A program made the translations under genes and the position numbers. The notes below the pieces were generated by a model. The model saw nothing but the letters and a program-made list of their open reading frames with translations, was not told the DNA's origin and did no database searches. From contig JAAYAB010000112.1 of the NCBI GenBank assembly GCA_012719595.1, positions 1 to 51,383 of the forward strand: a stretch of DNA of 51,383 bases, given 5' to 3'. Position 1 is the stretch's first letter. Every line of letters starts with the position of its first letter. Below, one piece after another: positions 27,357-40,378 of this stretch. This DNA comes from Bacillota bacterium (GTDB lineage: Bacteria > Bacillota > DTU014).

Positions 27357-30300
27357 GTGAACAGTCAGTCACGCGTATTGCGCTCGAGGGCCGCTGTGCT
27401 GATTGCGGTGACTCTGTCTCTACTTGCAGTGGTTGCAGCTGCAACGGTTGTGTCTGCAAGTCAAGATGAAGATACCTACATAGAATTCGTCTTTGACTCG
27501 TCGCTGAGTATGCGGGATCAGATCAGCGGTGGTGTCTCTCGCATGGCTGTGGCCAAGGGTGTGTTGAGGGACGTCATCGGCAGCCTGCAGGATCAGCCAG
27601 GGCTGTACATCGCCCTTCGCGTCTACGGTTCAAAGGTGATCGATGAGTACGCCTGTCAGGACTCAGAGTTGCTCCAACCGTTTGGAACCGTCGGAGAGGT
27701 GCGCGATCACATTATACGTATAGTCGAATCCCTCGAACCTAGAGGATGAACACCAATCGGACTGTCTCTGCAGCTCGCAGCCAAGGACTTCCCGATGAAC
27801 CCTGGTGACCGCAATGTCATCGTCCTGATCACTGATGGACAAGAGAGTTGCGGCATAGATCCGTGTGCAGTGAGCCTTGAGCTGCAGGAAAAGGGTGTCA
27901 TCATGAAGCCTTACGTCGTGGGGTTTGCGATCTCGGCCAAGGAAGAGGCAACGGTGCGGTGTATCGGCGAGTACTACAGCGCCAATGACCGCGACTCTCT
28001 GGCCGAGGCCCTCCAGTCGATTCTAGTGAAGGTGGTTGCGCCACCGACTCTTGAGATTACGGCCATTGGCGGTGGACAGAGTGTCCTCGACAGGACACGC
28101 ATAGAGATTCTCGACTCGGCGGGCACCGTCGTATTTGATGGGGTGCCGGGATCTGAACCGGTCATGACAGCCTCATTCGGCGAAGGAGTCTACACGGTGC
28201 GGGGTTACCTCGCGATCGGTCCTGATACGCTGACTGCATCCCAGTCGGATGTCTTGCTGACGCCAGGACAGACCACCAGCGTGCAACTCGACTTCGGTTC
28301 ACTCGCCGGAGGGCTCCGGGTGACTGCTCGCGCGAGCGGCAAGGATGTCAGTGATCGGCTTCAGATCGAGGTGTCGCAATCCGGCCGAGCTATACAGGTC
28401 GGCTGGCGAGGACTGCCGCCCACGACCGCGCTACCGGCAGGAGAGTATCTCGTCAAAGTCGTCCACAAGGACTACCCAGCATTGAGCGGCGAGCGCATGG
28501 TTCGCATCTCGCCAGACAAGGGGATTGTTGTCGACTTCGATCTCGGAGAGCTGCCCGCACAGCTTGAGGTAGCTGTTCAGTTCATGGGGCGCGATGTGAC
28601 CAGCCAGTGTGAGTTGATTGTGTCTCGGCGCGGAGAGGTTATTGGGCAGCTTGGCACGGGAAGCAGTCTCTTGGCCTACACAGGCACTCCGGGGCCGGTC
28701 GATCTGAAGGTGACCTATGTCGGTGATGTCCGGGTCGATAAAGCTGTCACGGGCACCGTTCTGAGTGGTGGAGAAACCACTCGGGTAGTGGTGGACCTCT
28801 CCGACATGCTCGGTGTCGTAAGAGCCACGGTGCTCGCCGGTGATACTGATGTGACCGCCGACAGCAGGGTCAATCTGGATGGGTACAAAGCCACTCTGGA
28901 TCTACCTCAGCATGGTGCCTACAAAGAGGCAATTGTTCCGGCAGGCTTCTACGGAGCAAAGGCCTTCGGGCAAAGTGGCTACGAGAGCAGCACCGCGGAG
29001 ATAGACGTGCATCCCGGACAGGTTACGACGGTTGTCCTGGAGCTGAACGTGCCGGGGACCATCATCCTGAAGCCTACTGCCGGAGGCAAGGCTGTGCCTC
29101 TCGACAGGGTCACAGCGTCGGTGTACAGCCACGGCAGTTCTGTCGGGACGTTCCAGGTTGTTCGCGGTCAGCTGACAGCCGTCGTCGACGCAGGTACCTA
29201 CGACTTGGTGTGCACCTATTCAAGCATCCCAGAGCAGATGCGCACTGTTCCAAGTGTCTCTGTTGATTCCGGACGGACCAAGGAAGTGGTGGTGGACTTC
29301 GCTCCTACCGGCATGCTTGAGGTGAGTGCGATCGCGGACGGAAAGCCTCTGGATGGGGCTAGCTTCAGCATCTACGACGGTGATAAGTTGCTTGCTTGGG
29401 TGCCGTCGATGGGCCGATCCGGCCGCTACCAGGTCGAAGTGGTTGAGGGAGCGTACGACGTGGTCGTTGTCCCGCAAGTCGAGGGGTTTGAGAGCGAGCG
29501 GGTCAATGATGTGCGTGTGCCTGCGGGTGAGTCCGTCGAGCTGTCGGTCGTTCTAAGCGCCGCGACTGCGATCCGAGTGAAAGCGTTCTTGGAAGATCAA
29601 CCGACGTCGGACGTCGTTCTCCAGCTCTACAAGGCTAGCCAGACAGTGGGCGGCGTCAGGATGCAGGAGAAAGCTCCTGATCGTGGCACTACGAACAAGG
29701 GCGTGTTCGAGTCCAAGGTCGAGCCTGGTACGTACGATCTTCTCGTGTCATCGACTATAGCGGGCTATCGCGATAGATGGATCAGCGGCCTCACTGTCGC
29801 CAAGGGTGAGACGCTCGAACGCCGAGTGCAGATCGGCGGAGCTGGAAAGGTTGAGGTTTCTGTCCTGGTGAACGGCCAGCCTGCGTCCGATCCTGCCCTT
29901 AGGTTGTACCCTGCTGGCGACCCAAGTGACTGGCACGTGATGAGCTACAACGACGACCGCAATGTCTATCAGCTCGGGGTCGCAGAAGGCACGTGGGATC
30001 TCGAGATCGAGCCACGCATTTCGGGCATATCGAACCGGTGGATCGAGGGCCTGGAGGTGCGCGGAGGCGAGACACTCGAGCGAGAGGTGCGGCTGGCCGA
30101 CAAGGGCACGGTTCGGATCAAGGTGCTCGTGAACGGCGAACCGACATCGAGACCCCAACTGCGTCTGTATTCGACTGACGGTATGAACAACTACTACTGG
30201 TTGAACTATAACGACAGGAGCCAGGCGTATGAGGTCGCCATTGCAGAGGGTGTGTGGGACCTTCGGATCGAACCCTACATCGACAACCTGTCGGAGAAGT

Positions 30301-30359
30301 GGATACGAGGGCTGCAGGTGTCCGGACGGAGCGTCGTAGATCAGACTGTCAGCTACTAA
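27357..30359 (+). pseudogene. Secreted von Willebrand factor A protein with tandem beta-domains, frame interrupted by one TGA
   Basis: GTG at 27357, 9 nt after AAGGAGG. The frame is open to 30359 (1000 codon positions) except for a TGA at codon 131 (27747-27749). A signal peptide (VLIAVTLSLLAVVAAATVVSA) precedes a VWA domain with MIDAS residues Asp47, Ser49 and Ser51 (DSSLS), Thr132 directly after the TGA, and Asp160 (ITDG). Both sides retain coherent VWA sequence, including TPIGLSLQLAAKDF and DGQESCGIDPC. The C-terminal 800 residues are PEGA or carboxypeptidase-regulatory-like beta-domains, the last three tandemly repeated. Such proteins bind ligands at the cell surface. One transition from TGG or CGA would explain the stop. 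Recent pseudogene, sequencing error or readthrough are all open. Translation could also restart at ATG 27795, without the MIDAS front half. Confidence 0.85.
29577..30356 (+). repeat. Three tandem beta-domain repeats in the VWA protein
   Basis: The last two units begin at about 29862 and 30123 (VLVNGQPASDPALRLYP and VLVNGEPTSRPQLRLYS) and are 87 residues apart. An earlier, looser unit starts near 29577 (FLEDQPTSDVVLQLYK). Each ends with WDLxIEPxI, an RWI/KWI element and a GLxV strand. Internal duplication is the likely origin. Confidence 0.8.
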
Positions 30360-34893: not shown

Positions 34894-35622
34894 ATGAAAA
34901 GAGTTCTAGCAATTGCATTGGCCATGGTCCTTTGCCTGAGCGCTGTGGCGATGGCTCAAGCAGCGGAGTTTGGAAGGGATGTGAAGATCACCCCGGTTGG
35001 TGGCAACGATGGGCTGGTGACTCTGTACATCTCTGACGTCGTATACCTCAGTTTCGTAAAGGCAAGCGGATCCGGTCAAGGGTTCAAGCGTGCGGAAATC
35101 GACTCCGGCCTGGCGATCTTCCCGAACATCCACAGGCTGAAGGTATCGTCGACCGTGAACTACCTGATAGCGGCGAACGTCATGAACGACGGTGACTACA
35201 AGGTCTGGTATGAGGATGACGTGCTCACTAGCATGTCACAGCTAGGAAGCAACGTGGCGGTTGGCAGCCCAAGCGGTAACCCTGATGACAACAACAGGTA
35301 CATCTCAATGAACCTTATCCAGGCTCAGGCTGTAGGGCTTGTAGACGCGAACCAGCAGGACTTCGTTGCGAACGGCTGGCAACACGTCGACAGCGCCGGT
35401 TCAGCGTATCCGGGTGTTGGCAGAGAAGGAAGCTATCAGACACTCTGCTGGGGCGGTCCAACCTCGGGGGTTGGCACGGGCGATCGAATCCAGATCGACA
35501 TCGCATTGAACCTCGCGAAGGCAGCACAAGAGGGCGTAGTCATCCCGTCAGGCACCTACACGTTCTATCTAGACTACGTGGTCGTGGAGACGGACGAGGT
35601 GCCCGAGGTGCCCGCCGTCTAG
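34894..35622 (+). CDS. Small secreted protein, probable fibre subunit A
   Basis: ATG at 34894, 9 nt after AAGGAG; 242 aa. The signal peptide is MKRVLAIALAMVLCLSAVAMAQA, with cleavage before AEFGRD. The mature protein is beta-rich and polar, without a transmembrane anchor or sortase motif. It contains FKRAEIDSG (residues 64-72), shared in pattern with the next gene (FTRREIDEG). Its end, VIPSGTYTFYLDYVVVE, resembles the neighbour's GQYRFRVRFEP, as two subunits of one fold would. It opens an operon with a PapD-like chaperone and an usher-like protein, so I infer a secreted structural subunit. I do not recognise a named family. Confidence 0.75.
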   Translation: MKRVLAIALAMVLCLSAVAMAQAAEFGRDVKITPVGGNDGLVTLYISDVVYLSFVKASGSGQGFKRAEIDSGLAIFPNIHRLKVSSTVNYLIAANVMNDGDYKVWYEDDVLTSMSQLGSNVAVGSPSGNPDDNNRYISMNLIQAQAVGLVDANQQDFVANGWQHVDSAGSAYPGVGREGSYQTLCWGGPTSGVGTGDRIQIDIALNLAKAAQEGVVIPSGTYTFYLDYVVVETDEVPEVPAV

Positions 35623-35767
35623 ACAATGCGGACTGGCAGTGTTGCGGCGTTACCTCGACGCCGCGACACTCCAGCGAATGGTCACATCCGAGCGGATGAA
35701 TGAGTGGCGGCTGGGGAGTCGTACCATCAGTCTCCAGCTGCTGCTCATCACAAGGGAGAGGGTGCAT

Positions 35768-36325
35768 GTGCTCAGCAGACAACCGGGTCTGGTTAGGTGC
35801 ACAAAGCATATCGCAGCGATCAGTATAGTTGGCCTTGTCTACGGCGTACTCTTGTTCGCATTCGTGGATAGCGGGCACGTGGCCGCTCAAGAGCCCTATG
35901 TGTCGGTGGAAGTCGATGTGTCAACCTCTGATCTGACCTCAGAAGGGCACTTCACCCGGCGTGAGATAGACGAGGGATATGCCGAGCTGAGTGGTACCAT
36001 GGAGATCGGGGTTAGGTCTAACTGGTACTGGGGGCTCTCGGTGATTGTGGAGCGGATTTCGTGGCCCAACGGCGCCAGGGAGCCCGACGCGTCGTTTCTG
36101 CAGCTTAGATCAAGGTCGAAGACACAAGAAGCCTGGTCGGACTGGTCATCTTGGGCAGTGCCGACAGAGTGGAAGGCTGTGGGCGACGGAAACGCGACAA
36201 TCGAGGTGAAATACCGCGTCGATCTGAGGGGTCGCCCTGACCTTGAAGCCCCCGATCCGGTGATTCGAGGTCAATACCGGTTCCGTGTCAGGTTCGAACC
36301 GTTCTTGAGAAGCCCGGACCAATAG
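35768..36325 (+). CDS. Small secreted protein, probable fibre subunit B
   Basis: I chose GTG at 35768 (185 aa), preceded by AGGGAGAGG, over a long frame start at 35639 that would bury the signal peptide 60 residues in. The signal segment is IAAISIVGLVYGVLLFAF, ending near VAAQE. The mature part is a predicted beta-sandwich with FTRREIDEG at residues 62-70 and a C-terminal GQYRFRVRFEPF strand. These echo subunit A, so the two are probably distant paralogues. Eighteen bases separate it from the chaperone gene. Family unknown; subunit or adaptor role inferred. Confidence 0.7.
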   Translation: MLSRQPGLVRCTKHIAAISIVGLVYGVLLFAFVDSGHVAAQEPYVSVEVDVSTSDLTSEGHFTRREIDEGYAELSGTMEIGVRSNWYWGLSVIVERISWPNGAREPDASFLQLRSRSKTQEAWSDWSSWAVPTEWKAVGDGNATIEVKYRVDLRGRPDLEAPDPVIRGQYRFRVRFEPFLRSPDQ

Positions 36326-36343
36326 GATGGGAGAGGATCTGCA

Positions 36344-37222
36344 GTGAGCATTAGGGAGTTGCGCTATCGTTTACTTGCATCCGTAGTTGTGCTATGCCTA
36401 GGATTGATGTCTGTGTCGGATCTGGTTTCTGCTGCAGACGAGCCTGACCTCGCTGAGATGGAAGAGATCGGTCCACAGATAGGCGTCTCCACTCTGAACT
36501 TGAACCTCTCCGCCGTACCTGGAGAGATTCTGACGGGCGCGATTGAGGTCCACAACCTGGGCACGGAGCCGGAGGGTGTACAAGTGCTCTTAGCTGACTG
36601 GGAGTATGATCCCTCAGGAGCTGTGTCGATCCACGAACACGGCACGGTTGATCGCAGTCTGGCAGGAATGCTCACCGTCGCTCCGGCGTCGATGATGCTC
36701 AGCCCTGGCGAAACGCGTCCTATCCAATACAGGATTGAGGTGCCGCCGGATAGCGTCGGCTCGTTCTGGGCGATGATCATGGTAAGGTCCGAGCCCAAGG
36801 TCATCAGCAGTTCTGATTTTGGCGAGGGTAGAACGGCCGTCTTTGCTGCATCCAAGACCTACGGGATCAAGCTCATCGTGACTGCTCACTCGGAGTCGGA
36901 AAAGGAGCTCGTCATTGAGGACAGCGCAGTTGAATACCTCGAGGCTGGTGAAGGATCGGTTCTGGAAATACGGAGTCTGGTGACAAATACTGGGTTAGCT
37001 CATCTTGAACTCACGGGAACCGTGAACCTCATCAACGAACATGGCGACTCTGTTGGAGCAGCCCGAATCGGTCGTGCGCGCGTGCTTCCTGGCTACCAGA
37101 GGTTGGTAAGGACGACTCTGGCTGGCCAGCTAGATCCCGGATTCTATGTCGCCGTGGTGGTCCTCGATTTCGGTGGAGACTACCTGGTTGGATCCCAGGT
37201 TGAGTTTGAGATAGGTGAATGA
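36344..37222 (+). CDS. PapD-like periplasmic fimbrial chaperone
   Basis: GTG at 36344 with GAGAGG upstream; 292 aa. A signal peptide (LLASVVVLCLGLMSVSDLVSA) precedes two Ig-like domains. The first has the hallmarks of archaic-type pilus chaperones: VPGEILTGAIEVHNLGTEPEGV, the following DW, RSLAGMLTVAPASMMLSPGETRPI and VGSFWAMIMV. The second (about 185-292) covers EIRSLVTNTGLAHLELTG to the C-terminus. Such chaperones complete the fold of pilin subunits in the periplasm and deliver them to an outer-membrane usher. The two flanking subunit genes and the beta-barrel gene fit that role. A periplasm implies an outer membrane. Confidence 0.75.
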   Translation: MSIRELRYRLLASVVVLCLGLMSVSDLVSAADEPDLAEMEEIGPQIGVSTLNLNLSAVPGEILTGAIEVHNLGTEPEGVQVLLADWEYDPSGAVSIHEHGTVDRSLAGMLTVAPASMMLSPGETRPIQYRIEVPPDSVGSFWAMIMVRSEPKVISSSDFGEGRTAVFAASKTYGIKLIVTAHSESEKELVIEDSAVEYLEAGEGSVLEIRSLVTNTGLAHLELTGTVNLINEHGDSVGAARIGRARVLPGYQRLVRTTLAGQLDPGFYVAVVVLDFGGDYLVGSQVEFEIGE

Positions 37223-37250
37223 GAGCGCTACTTCGTCACGGAGGTGGCAG

Positions 37251-37307
37251 ATGGTGACTACGGCCATTCTGCTAAGGTGCTATGGCGCCTGGGTCGATGC
37301 ACTATGA
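37251..37307 (+). CDS. Possible 18-residue leader peptide coupled to the usher-like gene
   Basis: ATG at 37251 follows GGAGGTGG at ideal distance. It encodes MVTTAILLRCYGAWVDAL, and its TGA overlaps the ATG at 37304 as ATGA. The usher-like start has no ribosome site of its own, so it would be reached by translational coupling. A GTG at 37244 in the usher frame overlaps the SD itself and is unlikely. This is inference. Confidence 0.45.
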   Translation: MVTTAILLRCYGAWVDAL

Positions 37308-40300
37308 GAGGGATTTCTGCGGCCTTAGTGCTGGTTGTCTGCGTCTTGTTTCCTGTAGTAGGTCTTGCCGGCGAAAACGGTCCAGACGCAGTCCGTCTCG
37401 CACTGCCAGAGAGCAGGAGCGCTAACCCGGGCGAGTTCTGCACGTTAGTGTGTCGGCTACATAATGTGAGCTCTGACGATTTAGACTGCCTCGTTGAGGC
37501 GGCAGTCCCAGTCGGATGGAGGGCAACCAGCACAGCTAGCCGCGTGCGAGTTTCAGCTGGCCTTGAGAGACCTGTGTTTGTCACCTTCCAGGTTCCCGAC
37601 ACTGAGGCCGAAGGAGACTACGCCGTCACATTCAGGGTTGTTGACGCGGGGGGCAGGCCTATCGCGGAAGAGCTGACCACTATTCACGTGAATTCAGTCT
37701 ATGGGGTGAGGATTGTTCCTGAGACTCAGGCGATCTGGCTTGAGTCTGGTCAGCCGAGACAGGCCGGCCTGCTTGTGGAGAATTTGGGCAACGCGACCGA
37801 CACCTACACCATATCTGTCACGCATAATACCGAATGGTCGGTCACGGGGCTGCCCAGTTCGGTGACTGTCGGCGCAGGTGAGTCTGTGAGGCTTGGGTTT
37901 GAGGTGTCAGTAGCTCCCGGCGCCGCAGGCGAAGGATCACTCATCGTGATGGTTCAGTCAGAGCATTTGCCCAGACCAGCCATATGTTCCTACTCACTGC
38001 GCCGCGTACATAAGGCAGAGGATCACTCCTGGATCGACTATGGGTGGCGGATTCCGGCAGAGGCTTCGCTCTCTGCAGTAGCCGGGCAGTCCAGCGATTC
38101 GATCAAGGTTACGGGACGTCTCTCGGCTCACGGCACTTACTACGATCGGTACAGCTTGGGTCTAGGAATAGCATCCGCCGACCTAGAGAAGGGCGTTTCT
38201 TCGTATTACCTCCAATACAAGGATAAGGTCAGAGAGTTCGGTGTAGGCCATGTAGGGCAGCATCTTGGTCCACTCGGACTGATGCGTGGAGTTGGGTTGT
38301 CATGGCTGTTCAGGTTCGGCGAGGGTACCCTGGCTGGGTTCGTCGGGCATAGGGAGGGAGTGCGGCGAACCGGTGTCGTAGCCAGTTATGCCCCTAGCTC
38401 GAGCGTGCGGGTGGCCGGTGCTGCTTCGTACGTTGACAACGATGGCATCGCATCACAGCGTCTCGGAATAGAGGTAGGTGCCTTGCTGGGGAAGAGACTA
38501 GAACTGAGTGCCAGGGTCGTTCACAGTCGCCAGGGCAGCTCCTCGGGGGGATTCTCGGCCTCTGCCTCGGCCCGAGTCACCCACCCAACCGGCTTCGTTC
38601 AGGGCAGTGCTTCCATCGCTGAGGCGACATACGCGGGAGAAGGTGCCGACCGCGCTGGGGTCGGGCTCAACGCAGGGAAGCAGCTAGCGAAGAGTCTGTA
38701 CGCAGGAGTGTCACTCTCAGCATCGCGAGACAACATCGCTGGAGACCAGTCAAAGCCTTCTCATGCATACTACAGTGCGTCTCTGACAGGCAGCACAACG
38801 TTGCTCGATCTGGTGACGCTGTCTGCGTCAGTTGGCGGCAGTCAACAGGTTGATCTTGCGTCAAACCAGGCGATCTCCGATTCGCGCAGAGCGACCGTCG
38901 GAACCTCGTGCAGTATCGGCAGGGTCTCTCTGTGGCTTCAGGCACACAACGAGACACGGAGGGATCTGGTATCCGGCCAAATCGACGATCTGTCTGCCTA
39001 TTCTGCGCGCCTCCAGTATCGGACGCCTACCTGGCTTAGCTGGGTATATGGACAGGTGGCGAACTCACCCAGTATCGTGCCAAAAGGAGATTTGCTCTCG
39101 CGGGCGAGCGCCGGTTTGATGTATAGCCCGCAAGGCAGCGGCCTGTCACTGTGGATCAAGTGGACTGAGAAGATCCCGCTTCCAGATGTCTCCGAGAAGC
39201 TGCCCGAGTCTGAGATAGAGCTGGGAGGCATGTATCGCACCGGGAAGTGGGACTGGCACATAACAGGGACTCACTGTAGGGAAGAGCTTGGCGCGGAGCC
39301 ATGGTCGGCCGAGCTGAGTCTCGGCGTCGGCTATGCCGTAGCACAGGACTTCGAAGTGGGTCTCGATGTCACGAAGTCATGGTCATCTAGCGGGACCGAG
39401 GATATGGTCCTTGGACTATCCTTGACAAAGCGCTTTGCACTGCCTATCCCCGGCATACAGGCCTATGCTCTTGTCGAAGGCGTCGCTTACATCGATCTCA
39501 ATAGCAATGGGGTCTGGGATGATGATGATCTGCCCGTGCCCGGTGTCGTCATGAAGGTGGACACCATCAGGGCACGCACGAATGAAGAAGGACGCTATGC
39601 GTTTCCGCCTCTGGAGCCCGGGCCGTACACACTGATAGTTGAAAGCATTCCAGGGGGTCTCGAATGCGTCACGCCTATGCCGATCGAGATCGATGTTTCT
39701 CCGGATGAGACACTGTGGATCGCGGTTCAGTTGGCCGAGGTATCATCTGCATTCGGGAGAGTCCAGGTTTCACCTGATGGCAAGACAAGCGAGCTTGGAG
39801 GCACCGGAGTGCCCGGAGTCGTCGTAGTCGCAGTTGGGCAGGAGGGGAGCTATCGCACCGTAACCAACAGTGAGGGCGCGTACTACCTGCAAGTCCCGCC
39901 CGGAGACTACTCGCTGACTCTGGATGTCAGGTCTTTGCCGCCTCGCTATACTTTGACGACTGCCTCGCATGTCAAGGTATCGCTGAGCAAGGGTGAGCGT
40001 CAGCAGGTCCACTTCGGCATTGCCCCGAGAGCCAGGGAGATAGTGTTTACGTCGGGAGCATCAGCATCCACGCCTCCTGTCATTTCGGTCAGTACACCGC
40101 TGGGATCGGTTCAGCCGGGAGAGGTCGGCCAGCTCACAGTCTCATCCGACCAGAAGCTGATATCGGTCGTAGCCAAGATCCGTGGCGTGGAGGGGTTGCC
40201 TGAGGTTTCATTCTGGTCCACAGACGGGGGAATGACGTGGTCCGGGCCTTTGTACGTGCCTGATGTGCCCGCAGATGCCTGCGTCATCGAGATCGTAGTG

Positions 40301-40378
40301 AGGGACAGTCGAGGGAAGTCATGGACCAACCAGTACGACACGCGGCTGGCACCGGTACAGCAAGCACCGGCACGGTAG
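37304..40378 (+). CDS. Usher-like outer-membrane beta-barrel protein with Ig and SdrD-B-like domains
   Basis: ATG at 37304 gives 1024 aa with a clean signal peptide (MRGISAALVLVVCVLFPVVGLA). Residues of roughly 25-235 form two NEW3/Ig-like domains (LVENLGNATDTYTISV). About 242-722 shows alternating short amphipathic strands rich in Gly, Ser and aromatics (GRLSAHGTYYDRYSLGLGIA), as expected for a large beta-barrel. About 724-805 is an SdrD-B/carboxypeptidase-regulatory domain with a DLNSNGVWDDDD calcium-type loop. A second such domain follows (about 810-905), then an Ig domain (about 920-1010). The barrel plus soluble Ig domains resembles an usher but the order is not classical. A secreted porin or other outer-membrane translocon is the alternative. 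Confidence 0.65.
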   Translation: MRGISAALVLVVCVLFPVVGLAGENGPDAVRLALPESRSANPGEFCTLVCRLHNVSSDDLDCLVEAAVPVGWRATSTASRVRVSAGLERPVFVTFQVPDTEAEGDYAVTFRVVDAGGRPIAEELTTIHVNSVYGVRIVPETQAIWLESGQPRQAGLLVENLGNATDTYTISVTHNTEWSVTGLPSSVTVGAGESVRLGFEVSVAPGAAGEGSLIVMVQSEHLPRPAICSYSLRRVHKAEDHSWIDYGWRIPAEASLSAVAGQSSDSIKVTGRLSAHGTYYDRYSLGLGIASADLEKGVSSYYLQYKDKVREFGVGHVGQHLGPLGLMRGVGLSWLFRFGEGTLAGFVGHREGVRRTGVVASYAPSSSVRVAGAASYVDNDGIASQRLGIEVGALLGKRLELSARVVHSRQGSSSGGFSASASARVTHPTGFVQGSASIAEATYAGEGADRAGVGLNAGKQLAKSLYAGVSLSASRDNIAGDQSKPSHAYYSASLTGSTTLLDLVTLSASVGGSQQVDLASNQAISDSRRATVGTSCSIGRVSLWLQAHNETRRDLVSGQIDDLSAYSARLQYRTPTWLSWVYGQVANSPSIVPKGDLLSRASAGLMYSPQGSGLSLWIKWTEKIPLPDVSEKLPESEIELGGMYRTGKWDWHITGTHCREELGAEPWSAELSLGVGYAVAQDFEVGLDVTKSWSSSGTEDMVLGLSLTKRFALPIPGIQAYALVEGVAYIDLNSNGVWDDDDLPVPGVVMKVDTIRARTNEEGRYAFPPLEPGPYTLIVESIPGGLECVTPMPIEIDVSPDETLWIAVQLAEVSSAFGRVQVSPDGKTSELGGTGVPGVVVVAVGQEGSYRTVTNSEGAYYLQVPPGDYSLTLDVRSLPPRYTLTTASHVKVSLSKGERQQVHFGIAPRAREIVFTSGASASTPPVISVSTPLGSVQPGEVGQLTVSSDQKLISVVAKIRGVEGLPEVSFWSTDGGMTWSGPLYVPDVPADACVIEIVVRDSRGKSWTNQYDTRLAPVQQAPAR

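Follow-up and report, generated by a model that had tools for sequence, protein, structure and literature searches.

Chaperone-usher pili are regarded as a Gram-negative, mostly proteobacterial invention. Systems of this kind have been listed for Proteobacteria, Cyanobacteria and Deinococcus-Thermus (PMC4654587), and a search of open-access papers found no description of such a system in diderm Firmicutes, in Halanaerobiales or in Limnochordia. A further relevant protein is WxLIP of Gram-positive bacteria, which binds WxL proteins (PMC10599100); the text of that article mentions neither chaperones nor ushers, and the open-access search found no paper linking WxL with chaperone-usher systems. 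Here, we describe a four-gene operon located in the window, by which we mean the whole analysed stretch of 51,383 nucleotides (contig JAAYAB010000112.1 of assembly GCA_012719595.1) from a Bacillota bacterium. The operon encodes two small secreted proteins, a chaperone-like protein with two immunoglobulin (Ig)-like domains and a large protein with a predicted β-barrel. Sequence comparisons and structural models suggest that its products probably build surface fibres by a divergent, chaperone-usher-like route in a diderm endospore former of the Bacillota.

The chaperone family and the probable outer membrane of its hosts

The chaperone family was represented by two profiles, A1, which comprises ten members with the window protein in first place, and A5, a broader profile of 28 rows. 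Compared with a profile of nine fimbrial chaperones of E. coli K-12, A1 reached 95.5% (E=1.5e-8) with both domains covered, and A5 reached 92.6% (E=4.6e-7) with a score of 52.9, the maximum in 60 block shuffles being 31.2. Among PDB sequences, A5 matched EfmWxLIP1 over both domains (E=1.1e-10) as well as EcpB (E=4.8e-4). Because of the matches to the K-12 chaperones and to EcpB, the family is, as judged by profile comparison, homologous to fimbrial chaperones of the FimC and EcpB types; in the PDB profile search it is nearer to WxLIP (DUF916-DUF3324) than to these. The Pfam family WxLIP_PGBD was found in chaperone relatives only below the cut-off. The first-pass annotation of the window had named the protein PapD-like, and this designation holds for the family profiles, the window sequence alone having no Pfam match. 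A second, more distant chaperone-family gene lies at a contig end in the same genome (Table 1), where no neighbouring barrel protein was observed.

The genome to which the window belongs (G000; 94% complete, 313 contigs) yielded three Omp85/BamA-type matches (best 3.4e-46). The host likely possesses an outer membrane, since such proteins are encoded in its genome. The first-pass annotation had pointed to BamA, LptD and TamB as informative genes: besides the BamA-type matches there is an LptA/LptD_N-like match (E=4.3e-4) on the window's own contig, approximately 6.5 kb from the operon, and TamB (PF04357) was searched for in this genome and not found. Diderm Bacillota as such are already known and are not new; the Negativicutes are also known diderms. 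The same has been described for Halanaerobiales and Limnochordia (PMC11456536). In a phylum sample of 399 genomes, in which the chaperone family was called at E<=1e-6, Omp85 was present in 102 genomes and the chaperone family in 73. Omp85 occurred in 67 of the 73 chaperone-positive genomes compared with 35 of the 326 chaperone-negative ones (odds ratio 93, Fisher p=1.6e-42, counting genomes and not independent events). All genomes with a chaperone gene adjoining a large barrel-like protein (36/36) were Omp85-positive.

The six chaperone-positive genomes without Omp85 bear on a different explanation, according to which the two-Ig protein is a permanent structural partner of the small proteins in a non-fibrous surface complex, as is thought for WxLIP and WxL. 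Among solved structures, EfmWxLIP1 is nearest to the chaperone family; it belongs to the WxL-binding proteins (PMC10599100), and this kinship agrees with the idea, as do membrane-anchored versions of the chaperone in Omp85-negative genomes. Five Omp85-negative loci, a small sample from which G164 was left out, were inspected, and in four of them a C-terminal hydrophobic helix follows directly after the second Ig domain, which is the layout of WxLIP. No barrel protein was seen beside these four chaperones, two of which also contain a long coiled coil. Omp85 is present in the near relatives of the fifth genome (G366), a metagenome bin. In Omp85-positive genomes, however, no such membrane anchor was found, the window chaperone included, and the chaperone is paired with an usher fold or a secretin channel, as a shuttle would be. 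A non-fibrous complex in the window is therefore considered rather improbable.

Predicted large barrel proteins of the window and its relatives

Neighbourhoods of approximately 75 loci were inspected. In about 40 of them, from 36 genomes, the chaperone gene adjoins a large protein with two terminal SdrD_B/CnaB domains, and because of this recurrence we regard the operon as more than a chance grouping. In one group of loci, termed plug-type in the following, profile and model evidence identifies the large protein as a genuine distant usher, with the usher fold and a predicted plug between strands 6 and 7. Against eight ushers of K-12, a profile of 16 plug-type proteins reached 97.7% (E=1.7e-12) and scored 115.7, where 40 shuffles gave at most 34.6. 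With the N-terminal 400 residues by themselves E was 6.9e-8, and the alignment was in register across the plug and the GxYR motif. In the AlphaFold model of the plug-type protein of Orenia metallireducens (predicted local distance difference test, pLDDT, 83.6), an N-domain and six barrel strands precede the plug, a sandwich of residues 303-371, which is followed by 24 more strands and two C-terminal sandwiches. In a Foldseek search with this model, the 18 best PDB matches were all FimD or PapC (best E 1.2e-27), followed by LptD at 1e-8, and template modelling (TM) scores normalised to the target reached at most 0.53. Plug-type carriers named by a genome scan include Orenia metallireducens, Halanaerobium salsuginis, Halobacteroidaceae and metagenome-assembled genomes of Bacillota; this was a single scan with the plug-type chaperone subset, and the names are biased to Halanaerobiales-like taxa. 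Behind the chaperone, nearly every locus of the scan had a plug-type usher, whole or truncated. In three loci of Halobacteroidaceae, a single chaperone is followed by two consecutive plug-type ushers (Table 1).

The large protein of the window belongs to a second group, termed NEW3-type. Pfam detected a NEW3-type Ig domain (NPCBM_assoc), SdrD_B and CarboxypepD_reg in it, together with a sub-threshold match to an outer-membrane barrel. Its AlphaFold model (pLDDT 70.9) predicts Ig domains at residues 50-149 and 155-255, the barrel strands at 267-741, sandwiches at 742-832 and 834-930 and a further Ig domain at 945-1035, so that the membrane barrel proposed in the first-pass annotation is retained in the prediction. 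FimD and PapC were the best outer-membrane matches in Foldseek (3.2e-12), ahead of LptD and porins. Ig-rich ciliary proteins also stand high in the list, so the FimD/PapC match is partly due to the Ig domains. The C-terminal domain pair is of the same kind as in the plug type, and the profile match of 99.9% between the C-terminal domains of both types is weak evidence of descent because shuffled repeat blocks can score as high. EcpC, the alternative usher, gave nothing when compared with the profiles. By its gene partner, its C-terminal domains and its architecture, with weak support from Foldseek, we call the window protein usher-like; it is not filed in the usher family because its barrel is unlinked to ushers by sequence.

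Several results weigh against a fibre system with an usher in the window. The model has a predicted TM score of 0.45, is poor in the stretch 541-683 and contains no plug, and its TM-scores to FimD are only 0.22-0.34. PF00577 (Usher) matched neither the window protein nor any part of the window genome, the E. coli control being positive. The window-type profile A3 scored 29 against the K-12 ushers, which is inside the shuffle range, and once the C-terminal domains had been cut, the window-type barrel gave no convincing profile link to ushers of E. coli or to those of the plug type. The alignment also places no basic residue in the window chaperone at the equivalent of Arg8 of PapD, the anchor residue of the first strand, which non-classical systems may or may not need; most plug-type relatives, and several others, have R or K there. 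Subunit profiles searched against PDB and Pfam found no known pilin family and no WxL. Of the proposed usher-like β-barrel protein, the large barrel thus survives in prediction, and usher homology by sequence and the plug do not. In the wider proposal, a diderm Bacillota with an atypical chaperone-usher-like operon has good support from Omp85, the chaperone homology and the sister ushers with plug; the plugless and unlinked window barrel does not add to this, and fibre assembly is what we infer.

The missing plug and the lack of detectable usher homology would also suit a self-displaying outer-membrane adhesin similar to inverse autotransporters or intimin, in which the barrel exports its own CnaB/Ig domains and the chaperone merely protects the big or the small proteins. 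C-terminal CnaB/Ig domains, here indicated by the SdrD_B and CarboxypepD_reg matches, are typical of exposed adhesins. Nevertheless, we consider such an adhesin unlikely: the chaperone and the subunits are conserved together with the barrel protein in many loci, neither Pfam nor NCBIfam returned a match of the window proteins to the inverse-autotransporter barrel family, approximately 23 strands are predicted instead of 12, and the usher plug and fold are present in sister proteins whose C-terminal domain pair is of this kind.

In the chaperone-usher-like system that we favour, the two small Ig-like subunits would be exported by Sec, and the 292-residue chaperone would cap each of them in the periplasm via strand donation. 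The chaperone-subunit complex would then dock on the large 1,024-residue protein at its N-terminal Ig domains, which would replace the usher N-domain, and the subunits would polymerise by strand exchange and leave the cell through the predicted outer-membrane barrel. The C-terminal CnaB/Ig domains may act like the periplasmic C-terminal domains of an usher. In the plugless form the pore would, speculatively, need a different seal, for which the stretch of low confidence or the first Ig domains might serve.

Organisation of the window operon and variants of the arrangement

The four open reading frames (ORFs) form a tight operon with approximately 16-21 bp between the open frames, at the coordinates already given by the first-pass annotation. 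Candidate subunit 1 is encoded by the first gene, as is the case for subunits in related loci, and its gene is preceded by the ribosome site AAAAGGAG. The frame of subunit 2 is open from 35639, and the best start is the GTG at 35768 with the ribosome site GGGAGAGG, giving 185 residues. For the fourth gene, a GTG at 37244 would result in 1044 residues and the ATG at 37304, the most likely start, in 1024. The two small proteins had been described as secreted and related to each other. The secreted look was confirmed and their kinship was not, BLAST giving E=1.0; beyond this look they have in common only a G-x-Y strand motif at the C terminus. The small secreted proteins of the related operons form several clusters, many of them with a terminal G-x-Y strand motif and then a hydrophobic Y/F-T stretch. 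Pfam scans of subunit 1, subunit 2 and the chaperone, each alone, gave no match above chance, and Pfam and NCBIfam scans of all four window proteins gave no usher and no PapD match. Single-sequence phmmer searches of the window proteins against PDB returned nothing useful, nor did a promoter and terminator scan at the operon above chance. The neighbouring gerA genes were recovered as annotated, with GerA at E=1e-178, two GerAC and one Spore_permease. Upstream of the operon, and separated from it by an ATP-binding cassette (ABC) sugar-uptake operon on the opposite strand, lies an ORF of CnaB/Ig-like repeats (CarboxypepD_reg).

In a third arrangement, a tandem two-copy chaperone is accompanied by a short secretin with the domains Secretin, Secretin_N and STN/N0. 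This secretin has matches in Pfam (Secretin) and, at E=6e-46, in phrog_1012, the pIV family of filamentous phages. The chaperone-secretin module is also present in the genus nearest to that of the window (G001). In several of these operons a porin-like protein of approximately 300 residues follows the secretin, and one of the four listed in Table 1 matches Porin_4 (E=3.9e-7). In a quick tree of the chaperone domains, channel type required five label changes (minimum four) compared with 51 in shuffles, a contrast that is inflated by near-copies; deep branches are weak. Plug-type chaperones formed one group and the C-copies of tandem chaperones another.

These data also address the view that the operon consists of unrelated envelope genes lying side by side by accident, and that the barrel has a structural role or serves lipid transport like LptD. 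LptD and porins are indeed present in the Foldseek list. But the synteny extends across many families, the chaperone phylogeny matches the channel type, and LptD is weaker than FimD in both the window and the Orenia models, which makes a chance grouping highly improbable.

Table 1. Coordinates and composition of the operon genes, of neighbouring features and of related loci
Feature	Position or loci	Strand	Description
Candidate fibre subunit 1	34894..35622	+	242 residues, secreted, signal peptide; C-terminal strand SGTYTFYLDYVVV
Candidate fibre subunit 2	35768..36325	+	~185 residues, secreted; C-terminal strand GQYRFRVRFEP
Periplasmic chaperone-like protein	36344..37222	+	292 residues, two Ig-like domains; member of alignments A1/A5
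Usher-like outer-membrane protein (predicted)	37304..40378	+	1024 residues; two NEW3/Ig, ~23-strand barrel, two SdrD_B/CnaB, C-terminal Ig, no plug
Spore germination genes	43.7-49.4 kb		GerA, two GerAC, Spore_permease
Repeat ORF	27795-30359		854 residues, CnaB/Ig-like repeats
Second chaperone-family gene	L037:15588-16484		G000 contig 312
Plug-type arrangement	~18 loci		Subunits, chaperone, 900-1,030-residue protein: Cu-amine-oxidase-N-like N-domain, barrel, two SdrD_B
Tandem plug-type ushers	L122:6770-12803, L117:6740-12713, L129:708-6674		Halobacteroidaceae
NEW3-type arrangement	~22 loci, incl. window	sometimes opposite	Subunits, chaperone, ~720-1,160-residue protein: N-terminal Ig, barrel, CnaB; L023 is a short variant
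Secretin arrangement	~20 loci		Subunit, tandem two-copy chaperone of ~510-650 residues, secretin of ~390-450 residues
Chaperone-secretin loci	L032:7804-10672, L033:7444-10321, L034:6734-9942, L085-L097, L099, L100, L102, L104		With secreted small proteins
Porin-like proteins after secretin	L085:8312-9196, L086:4558-5490, L087:9482-10372, L088:10562-11482		
Membrane-helix chaperones	L035:8456-9841, L073:1328-2212, L076:6274-7821, L082:2840-3760		Omp85-negative genomes

Comparison with known systems

We tentatively suggest that diderm Bacillota may possess a superfamily of chaperone-dependent fibre exporters in which one chaperone lineage has been combined with three outer-membrane gates, namely plug ushers, plugless NEW3 ushers and short secretins, and that with the loss of the outer membrane the gate would have gone and the chaperone would have been tethered to the cell membrane, giving rise to the WxLIP/WxL surface systems of Gram-positive Firmicutes; we judge this scenario somewhat less probable than its opposite. 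If true, the link between the chaperone and WxLIP would offer a concrete and testable case of the fate of an outer-membrane machine after the loss of that membrane. If a divergent version is widespread in diderm Bacillota, the chaperone-usher pathway would move further back in bacterial history, and Halanaerobiales and their relatives would gain a surface-fibre system unseen by standard usher profiles. For the export of donor-strand fibres, a plugless usher and a pairing of chaperone and secretin would both be novel solutions. The central claims are open to testing, as Orenia metallireducens and Halanaerobium salsuginis can be grown in culture.

Inverse autotransporters of the intimin/invasin type share with the window protein the order of a barrel and then C-terminal Ig-like domains, but differ from it in strand number and in the absence of the conserved chaperone and subunit genes found alongside it. 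The stand-alone secretins (pIV) are comparable to the tandem-chaperone variant, which is not in the window: its secretin matches the pIV family, but has a two-copy chaperone and Ig-like subunits as partners. To our knowledge, the pairing of a chaperone with a secretin is known from no described system. The WxL/WxLIP clusters of monoderm Firmicutes resemble the window system in the chaperone, whose two Ig domains both align with EfmWxLIP1, and in the small secreted partners that sit beside it. In contrast, WxLIP has a C-terminal membrane helix, which the window chaperone lacks, and no outer-membrane channel partner; a Pfam search of the window subunits and of those of the relatives found no WxL domain.

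The closest counterpart is the chaperone-usher pathway with FimC/FimD and PapD/PapC, the archaic Csu and the alternative ECP systems. The window system differs from it in its occurrence in diderm Bacillota, where it is undetected by PF00577, and its large protein differs from an usher in having two NEW3/Ig domains instead of the usher N-domain, no plug, and C-terminal domains of the CnaB type with an extra Ig domain. The plug-type relative has approximately 30 predicted barrel strands in place of the 24 of FimD. Common to both are small secreted subunits and a two-Ig chaperone encoded in one operon with a large barrel protein, the window barrel and the N-terminal and two C-terminal sandwich domains around it being predicted, in part at low confidence; in the sister proteins, a plug is predicted at the position known from ushers.

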